A stretch of 38,723 bases of DNA. Source: Parapedobacter soli (GTDB taxonomy: Bacteria; Bacteroidota; Bacteroidia; Sphingobacteriales; Sphingobacteriaceae). The notes beneath the pieces are model-generated. The model had not been told where the DNA came from. It searched no databases and was given only the letters and a program-made list of their open reading frames with translations. The stretch spans positions 35,106 through 73,828 of the forward strand of contig NZ_JAMXAY010000023.1 of the NCBI RefSeq assembly GCF_025460835.1. Reading direction: 5' to 3'. Below, one piece after another: positions 282 to 933 of this stretch. The translations under genes were made by a program, and so were the position numbers. The stretch's first letter is position 1. Each line of letters starts with the position of its first letter.

Positions 282-719
282 TCAGTCTATTCTTTTGAAA
301 TGGTCTTCGTACCAATAATATTCTCCGTGGTCATCTTGTGTTATTGCGTGATCTAATACTAGGTCAGTAGAGGTGAGGGTCAAAATATCCCGTGTACTTG
401 TTTCTCCCTCGAAAACAAACGTGATGGTTTTCCCGTTTTCGGACACTTTGTATGATCCGGTACCTTGTAAGTCTCCGTCAGCATAAGAACTTGCGCTGCC
501 AGAAGTATTAAATTCGATAATATACACTCCGTCTGGATGGAATGTGTCCTTGGTCTCCGGCATTTTTTGCCCGTTGCTGACTTCCCATTCCACGGAGTGG
601 GTCATTTCCCATTTTCCGACTATGGGGTTCTGGTCTTTGTCCTTGTTGCAGGAAACAAAAGCGGTAAGCACCGCCATAAACGCAATGATGGCGATTGTCT
701 TTGATAATTTTGAAAACAT
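282..719 (-). CDS. Lipocalin-like lipoprotein
   Basis: A 145-residue protein with a lipoprotein signal: hydrophobic segment at residues 9-22, then a lipobox ending FVSC with Cys24. The mature start CNKDKD is acidic/lysine-rich, as in Bacteroidota lipoproteins sent to the outer membrane. The body (KWEMTHSVEW..., GSYKVSENGKTITFVFEG..., DILTLTSTDLVLDH) has the alternating strand pattern of Bacteroidota lipocalin-like lipoproteins, starting with a GKW motif (residues 35-37). Ligand unknown. The gene sits directly downstream of a terminator-like hairpin at 771-834, so it may be attenuated, or simply follow an independent RNA. It probably shares a transcript with the 70-255 gene. Confidence 0.7.
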   Translation of the reverse strand: MFSKLSKTIAIIAFMAVLTAFVSCNKDKDQNPIVGKWEMTHSVEWEVSNGQKMPETKDTFHPDGVYIIEFNTSGSASSYADGDLQGTGSYKVSENGKTITFVFEGETSTRDILTLTSTDLVLDHAITQDDHGEYYWYEDHFKRID

Positions 720-761
720 TTTTGATTTATTCGGTTGCCTTAGCCCCTGTTAGGCGGTTAT

Positions 762-834
762 AAAAAAACAGCGTGGGGCCTCATCGGCTACCACGCTCAC
801 CACAAGCGCACATACGTAATGAGGACACCCACGC
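762..834 (-). terminator. Intrinsic terminator with long hairpin (minus strand)
   Basis: On the minus strand 834-819 (GCGTGGG, TGT, CCTCAT) pairs with 784-771 (ATGAGG, C, CCCACGC). This gives thirteen base pairs around a small internal loop and a 34-base apical loop. It is followed at once by TGTTTTTTT (770-762). That is a convincing rho-independent terminator, although the apical loop is unusually long and can pair elsewhere. Confidence 0.7.
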
Positions 835-920
835 ATGGCGTGAGCATAACCCATACTCGTATGTGTCTGGTTTTCGAGGTGGTGATTCGGTAACCGTAAC
901 GAGTTCGCTATTTATATTAA
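763..920 (-). ncRNA. Candidate structured RNA, about 160 nt
   Basis: This 240-base gap holds no convincing gene but dense complementarity. In minus-strand RNA order the segments 885-879 and 803-797 (TCACCAC/GTGGTGA), 865-858 and 816-809 (CACATACG/CGTATGTG), and 845-840 and 800-795 (GCTCAC/GTGAGC) are perfect complements. The terminator stem 834-819 with 784-771 crosses the first two, so the RNA is either pseudoknotted or switches between two folds. A TACATTTG box at 933-926 would start transcription near 920. I do not recognise a known family (it does not look like tmRNA, SRP RNA or a TPP or cobalamin riboswitch). It could be a free-standing small RNA or the regulated leader of the lipoprotein gene. 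Confidence 0.5.
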
Positions 921-925
921 CTTCC

Positions 926-933
926 CAAATGTA
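926..933 (-). promoter_or_regulatory. -7 box TACATTTG for the candidate RNA
   Basis: Minus-strand TACATTTG is an exact TAnnTTTG match. The nearest upstream TTG (961-959) is 25 bases away, longer than the usual 19-20, so the -33 element is uncertain. The box points into the structured region and lies in the divergent gap in front of the plus-strand gene at 967. Confidence 0.4.

Follow-up and report, generated by a model that had tools for sequence, protein, structure and literature searches.

A candidate cis-acting leader RNA family of Bacteroidota in which several helices compete for one arm

The described systems closest to the RNA reported here are the transcription-attenuating riboswitches and protein-bound leaders, with which it shares its place as a 5′ leader, alternative pairings of one arm, a U tract before the gene and strong covariation. 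Most metabolite riboswitches precede genes of common function. The present family differs from such leaders in the lack of a common gene function, in its rod of about 150 nt, in an extra conserved pairing across the U tract and in having no Rfam match. Its rod shape, similar length and own promoter and end recall 6S RNA and 6S-Flavo (RF01685), but it is unlike 6S-Flavo in lacking an Rfam match, in occurring as several copies per genome before different genes and in its conserved downstream pairing. By function, 6S RNA binds the RNA polymerase holoenzyme and serves as template for a product RNA. The put and EAR antitermination RNAs are structured RNAs near the 5′ end of accessory or phage gene transcripts; going by their description, the present family shares this placement and is set apart by ending in a U tract with competing pairings. 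To our knowledge, few cis-regulatory RNAs have been described in Bacteroidota. Among the structured RNAs of this phylum are the motifs Pedo-repair, Bacteroidales-1, Flavo-1 and Bacteroid-trp, which were described in 2010 (PMC2864571). In Flavobacterium, leaders and sRNAs that lack an Rfam match are reported, the sRNAs being strongly folded (PMC9723704), and one of these RNAs, known here by description, could be a member of the family.

The window, a stretch of 38,723 nt from Parapedobacter soli (contig NZ_JAMXAY010000023.1, positions 35,106 to 73,828 of the forward strand), contains a minus-strand segment flanked by an 80-aa ORF of the plus strand (967-1209) and by a lipoprotein gene (282-719). 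For this gap, an earlier note had proposed a new structured RNA with crossing helices and its own terminator. The features of the segment are as follows.

926..933, minus strand: promoter -7-like box TACATTTG, from the sequence.
762..911, minus strand: the part of the structured leader RNA that the model matches (R1, all of its positions 1-155).
906..911, minus strand: P1a 5′ strand AUAGCG, partner 773-768 (MFE fold; helix 1 of A3, 95.0% of cells paired).
899..903, minus strand: P1b 5′ strand CUCGU, partner 784-780 (MFE fold; A1 columns 9-13).
888..896, minus strand: P2 5′ strand, partner 793-785 (MFE fold; A3 helix 4, two-sided change in 8/8 pairs).
879..885, minus strand: P3 5′ strand UCACCAC, partner 803-797 (A3 helix 5, 8/8 pairs two-sided, 99.5% of cells paired).
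858..865, minus strand: P4 5′ strand CACAUACG, partner 816-809 (A3 helix 6, 9/10 pairs two-sided).
838..844, minus strand: apical hairpin 5′ arm CUCACGC, partner 834-828 (MFE fold).
819..834, minus strand: apical 3′ arm, which doubles as 5′ arm in the crossing, terminator-like stem (own-versus-others duplex test; close-relative contrasts).
794..808, minus strand: P5, CGC 808-806 with GCG 796-794, around the P3 3′ strand (A3 helix 7).
771..784, minus strand: 3′ arm AUGAGGCCCCACGC, common to P1, the crossing stem and helix c (duplex tests and contrasts).
768..773, minus strand: P1a 3′ strand CGCUGU, partner 911-906 (same basis as the P1a 5′ strand).
762..768, minus strand: U7 tract, from the sequence.
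742..747, minus strand: helix c 3′ strand GGGGCU, partner GGCCCC 780-775 across the U tract (permutation and contrasts).
282..719, minus strand: downstream gene, encoding a 145-aa lipocalin-like lipoprotein (PF13648 Lipocalin_4, E 1.8e-7).

Both boundaries proposed in the earlier note were found. The box at 933-926, which we take to resemble the Bacteroidota TAnnTTTG -7 consensus, stands at one end, and U7 at 768-762 bounds the RNA at the other; a U-rich end is present in relatives of the window RNA too. The lipoprotein ATG lies 42 nt past the end of the RNA match and the U7 tract. Positions 1-40 of the window, after the lipoprotein gene, form a perfect 40-nt palindrome, and the contig has a run of unread bases just upstream with the palindrome sequence flanking both sides, a possible sign of a long hairpin at which the assembly broke off.

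In agreement with the earlier note, which had recognised no known family, the Rfam 15 scan of the window gave 0 matches at the gathering score, 6S-Flavo included. The sole result of the permissive Rfam search of 700-1000 was a microRNA match of 15.5 bits on the plus strand, and ARAGORN found no tRNA and no tmRNA in the window. At the gathering score, 39 member loci (19 + 20) yielded tRNAs only, while the permissive search of five member loci yielded two sub-cut-off matches, both outside the RNA. Neither the window nor the scanned member loci matched RF01715, RF01693, RF01705 or RF01692, as numbered in a table of PMC2864571. In the open full text covered, which included PMC11109978 and PMC8632094, nothing was recognised as the window RNA.

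Among 399 genomes of the window's family, DNA similarity turned up matches, some of them short and weak, in 16 (5 of 25 genera), and 11 full-length members, the window included, aligned along the entire RNA. From these 11 sequences the covariance model R1 was built, which scored the window RNA, itself one of the 11, at 130.9 bits; the R2 model gave 123.8 bits. R1 located members in at least 54 of the 399 genomes, and named records placed members in the Sphingobacteriaceae genus Mucilaginibacter, M. polytrichastri among them. The weaker matches of R1 (30-54 bits) retained the same rod, the apical ACGC..GCGUGGG and the 3′ CCCACGCU-U run, and several of them led directly into an ORF of 75-76 aa. 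R2 matched at least 66 of the 395 genomes searched in the window's class, spread over at least 44 of 197 genera, with up to five matches per genome, and at least 14 of 296 genomes sampled across the phylum, a single one of which falls outside the class; all genomes searched were within Bacteroidota, some of the weak matches (30-45 bits) may be false, and prevalence is a lower bound because the whole-genome model searches took no more than 10 candidates per genome, under strict filters. The window's own genome has a second copy (C109:49300-49462, 65.6 bits) with an 80-aa ORF after it. Alignments A2, A3 and A4 comprised 116 distinct sequences, from which 101 non-redundant members were drawn; several model-search matches, including most near-identical class-2 copies, lie outside this set. 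Judged by sequence comparison, the structured RNA family is real, new and widespread, and it is absent from Rfam 15.

The class-1 pattern matched nine records among named genomes, six of them members by model score; L055, L057 and L063 were rejected on that score. One locus carried tandem copies of the RNA, at 2675-2831 and 2959-3118 of L109, 284 nt apart. A genome of the same genus (G005) contained the 5′ half only (80% over 86 nt; model 11.9 bits, E 0.57), which was excluded from every count. This half element, at 1501-1587 of L002, lies near a tRNA-Leu-like sequence and a phage integrase gene and is perhaps a remnant of excision or insertion.

The window RNA was predicted to fold as a long rod with an MFE of -61.9 kcal/mol (z -3.72), and 1 of 200 shuffles was equally good. 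RNAalifold on A1, the sequence-only alignment of 11 members, recovered the rod with 36 pairs, 17 of which had at least one two-sided change. In A3, which holds 28 wider members, standard pairs filled 94.9% of cells versus 62.8% after shuffling, two-sided changes occurred in 36 of 39 pairs, and the covariation score was 0.843 against 0.210, or 0.07-0.13 with partners slid; these values lean towards the model structure, A3 and A4 having been aligned by the model. A1 and the duplex tests are independent of the model alignment, the duplex windows still being placed by model match ends. The covariance in homologous loci proposed as a check of the RNA was strong, in a family of 101 non-redundant members. 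P5 was paired in 95.2% of A3 cells, with 2 of its 3 pairs changing on both sides, and took the forms GGU/ACC, GGC/GCC, GGA/UCC, GGG/CCC and CGC/GCG across members. The paired columns held 136 G-U pairs versus 11 A-C mismatches, an excess which indicates that the minus strand of the element is the folding strand.

The four helices first proposed, all as perfect complements, fared differently. Helices 885-879/803-797 (UCACCAC/GUGGUGA) and 865-858/816-809 (CACAUACG/CGUAUGUG) were exact and correspond to P3 and P4 of the family, which covary in relatives. Helix 845-840/800-795 (GCUCAC/GUGAGC) was also exact in the window but had no family-level support, with 35 of 60 cells paired among 10 relatives in A1 versus 71 of 80 for P4, and it was regarded as chance. 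By the same count, P3 reached 47 of 70 and the terminator 7-mer 46 of 70, figures that shifts in the A1 alignment depress in both cases. For 834-819/784-771, the pairing was supported by the family but the complement was not perfect: 16 nt face 14, forming 7 bp (834-828/777-771) and 6 bp (824-819/784-779) with an internal mismatch between them.

The crossing of helices was real, since the 5′ arm of the terminator-like stem falls within the rod loop, and two kinds of comparison supported the proposal that the RNA is pseudoknotted or bistable. In the alignment-free duplex test, the crossing stem had a mean energy of -22.4 kcal/mol with each member's own 3′ arm versus -18.7 kcal/mol with the arms of other members (sd 0.24, n=101); for the 48 members without the consensus arm, the values were -21.9 versus -17.5 kcal/mol. 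The pairing between the apical region and the 3′ arm had a median of 17 bp. For helix c, the own leader after the U tract gave -11.8 kcal/mol versus -9.7 kcal/mol for permuted partners (sd 0.25, n=100). Close relatives, taken as 50 disjoint pairs, served to contrast own with swapped pairings: own beat swapped by 36 to 9 for the crossing stem (P 6.6e-5) and by 36 to 12 for helix c (P 7e-4), against 22 to 28, 20 to 28 and 26 to 20 for three control pairings and 48 to 1 for the positive control P2/P3.

In calculations restricted to nested folds, the enforced crossing stem was weaker than the rod by a median of 14 kcal/mol, and the enforced crossing fold came within 3 kcal/mol of the rod in 1 of 101 members. 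With the terminator-like stem weaker by this amount, a switch would require either a pseudoknot or a choice made kinetically as transcription proceeds. The computed energies favour the rod over the terminator, which leaves the switching step a proposal; the rod may instead be a default that never yields, or both rod and crossing stem may be present together in a genuine pseudoknot. At about 45-55 nt, the terminator-like stem has a loop of a size unusual in intrinsic terminators. A structural 5′ leader without a switch, serving newly acquired genes as a processive antitermination or mRNA-stabilising element, would suit so stable a rod, as well as the module's own promoter-like box, its functionally unrelated downstream genes and its presence on a plasmid, an IMG/VR contig and a phage-recorded contig. 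We consider this reading unlikely, as it leaves unexplained the compensation that keeps the crossing stem and helix c, both of which use the 3′ arm.

The upstream promoter box is a trait of the family. The 60 nt before the RNA contained TANNTTTG in 45 of 101 members, where shuffles gave 3.2 (sd 1.7); widening the span to 100 nt raised the figure to 71 of 101, and the boxes clustered near -22 and -60. Among the 99 members with enough downstream sequence, 66 had a same-strand ATG ORF of at least 60 codons starting within 60 nt downstream, 47 of these starts falling in the 29-60 nt range and the other 19 between -3 and 28 nt. A same-strand ORF started within 220 nt in 88 of the 99, and the opposite strand had 11 ORF starts in a span of that length, which places the RNA as a 5′ leader upstream of a gene and on its strand. 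No downstream ORF was found in 6 of 101 members, in at least one of them for lack of sequence. Locus L012 kept the RNA and had no gene, and its P2 and P3 contained broken pairs (A1). If the RNA were an independent small RNA acting in trans, the downstream gene would be reached through leakage alone. The own promoter-like box and U tract would fit such an sRNA, as would the strongly folded Flavobacterium sRNAs without an Rfam match, known by description from PMC9723704, whereas helix c and the preferred distance of ORF starts are cis features and the broken pairs of the gene-less L012 also speak against it; we regard a trans-acting sRNA as quite improbable.

The protein scan covered 89 of the 95 downstream ORFs, six short or doubtful ones being excluded, and assigned 57 Pfam families, none present in more than four proteins; among these 89 proteins, it revealed no common function and suggested no ligand. 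Matches to the defence library were mostly methyltransferases, in up to five proteins (e.g., L072 and L091). By a crude measure, hydrophobic N-termini were found in 54 of 92 downstream proteins versus 53 of 159 other ORFs of the loci, and in 14 of 16 in the window's subfamily. In a subfamily (L042, L044, L045, L050, L054, L092), the RNA stood directly before an ORF of 75-80 aa; the L044 ORF matched the RNA polymerase alpha C-terminal domain above the Pfam cut-off, and the other short ORFs of this subfamily were below the cut-off. In the subtype of L072, L077, L091, L103, L113 and L141, the U tract was followed by GUGGC..CACAAAAA, so the U tract itself could pair with the downstream A tract. 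Several genes of this subtype were methyltransferases or restriction-like. The best Pfam match of L077 was below the cut-off, and its assignment as a restriction-modification gene was dropped, as was a guessed RteC-like identity for the gene beside the class-2 copies, for which no support was found.

The window copy lies within a stretch of about 6.4 kb between a SecDF gene and an SDF symporter gene, which are about 0.5 kb apart at most in six of seven relatives compared; in the seventh (L173), other genes lie between them. The same stretch carries IS1595-type and Mutator-type transposase genes. A plasmid of Rhizosphaericola (40.2 bits), a contig from IMG/VR (48.9 bits) and a fecal contig recorded as phage (61.8 bits) also carried members. 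On this last contig (L157, 2447-5041), the RNA is followed by genes for an unknown protein and an AAA ATPase (AAA_15), and the latter may be a defence gene. By DNA similarity, the window sequence had no match in the phage and plasmid collections, and of four exact-pattern scans of viral contigs, three came back empty and one matched a single contig.

Integron attC sites carry the recombination core GTTRRRY at the cassette end and occur in cassette arrays. A recombination site or mobile cassette end of this kind, folding as single-stranded DNA, would accord with the exchangeable downstream genes and with the island, plasmid and phage-labelled settings. It appears very improbable given the conserved promoter-like box and U tract, the strand-specific G-U pairs, the single copies instead of arrays in most loci (L109 having the one tandem pair) and the lack of a recombination core recognisable by eye.

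The reading we favour, with a probability of roughly 0.57, is that the RNA leads accessory genes and acts on them in cis, in the manner of an attenuator or riboswitch, cis control being favoured because of the position and the conserved downstream pairing. Comparison of the members reveals the helices, the competition for one arm and the position between promoter-like box and gene. Transcription would start from the promoter at 933-926, cross the RNA of about 150 nt and reach the U7 tract and the lipoprotein gene, and the RNA would adopt the rod, built of P1-P4 and topped by the apical hairpin. From there, the apical 3′ arm could exchange its local hairpin partner for the 3′ arm beside the U tract, producing the terminator-like stem, and transcription would presumably terminate at the U tract; if transcription continued, the same 3′ arm would pair with the leader past the U tract in helix c. 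These folds would exclude one another in the cell, and the choice between them, set by a selecting signal that may be a small molecule, a protein or the speed of transcription, would determine the output of the downstream gene. The lack of a common downstream function, the stability of the rod, the unusual loop and the gene-less L012 count against a leader switch.

A wider proposal, which we put forward tentatively and hold to be somewhat doubtful, is that of an orphan class of regulatory RNA, widespread in Bacteroidota and travelling with accessory genes. It would be a portable promoter and switch that obeys one shared signal through a three-way competition for one arm, reused before restriction-modification enzymes, lipoproteins, and secreted and membrane proteins.

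If the favoured reading is true, a large regulatory RNA family is missing from Rfam 15, and the three partners competing for one arm offer clear mutants to build. Because the downstream genes share no pathway, the question arises of whether a shared signal or a general need of acquired Bacteroidota genes is served. The relatives of the window RNA probably help decide how much of each accessory gene is made.
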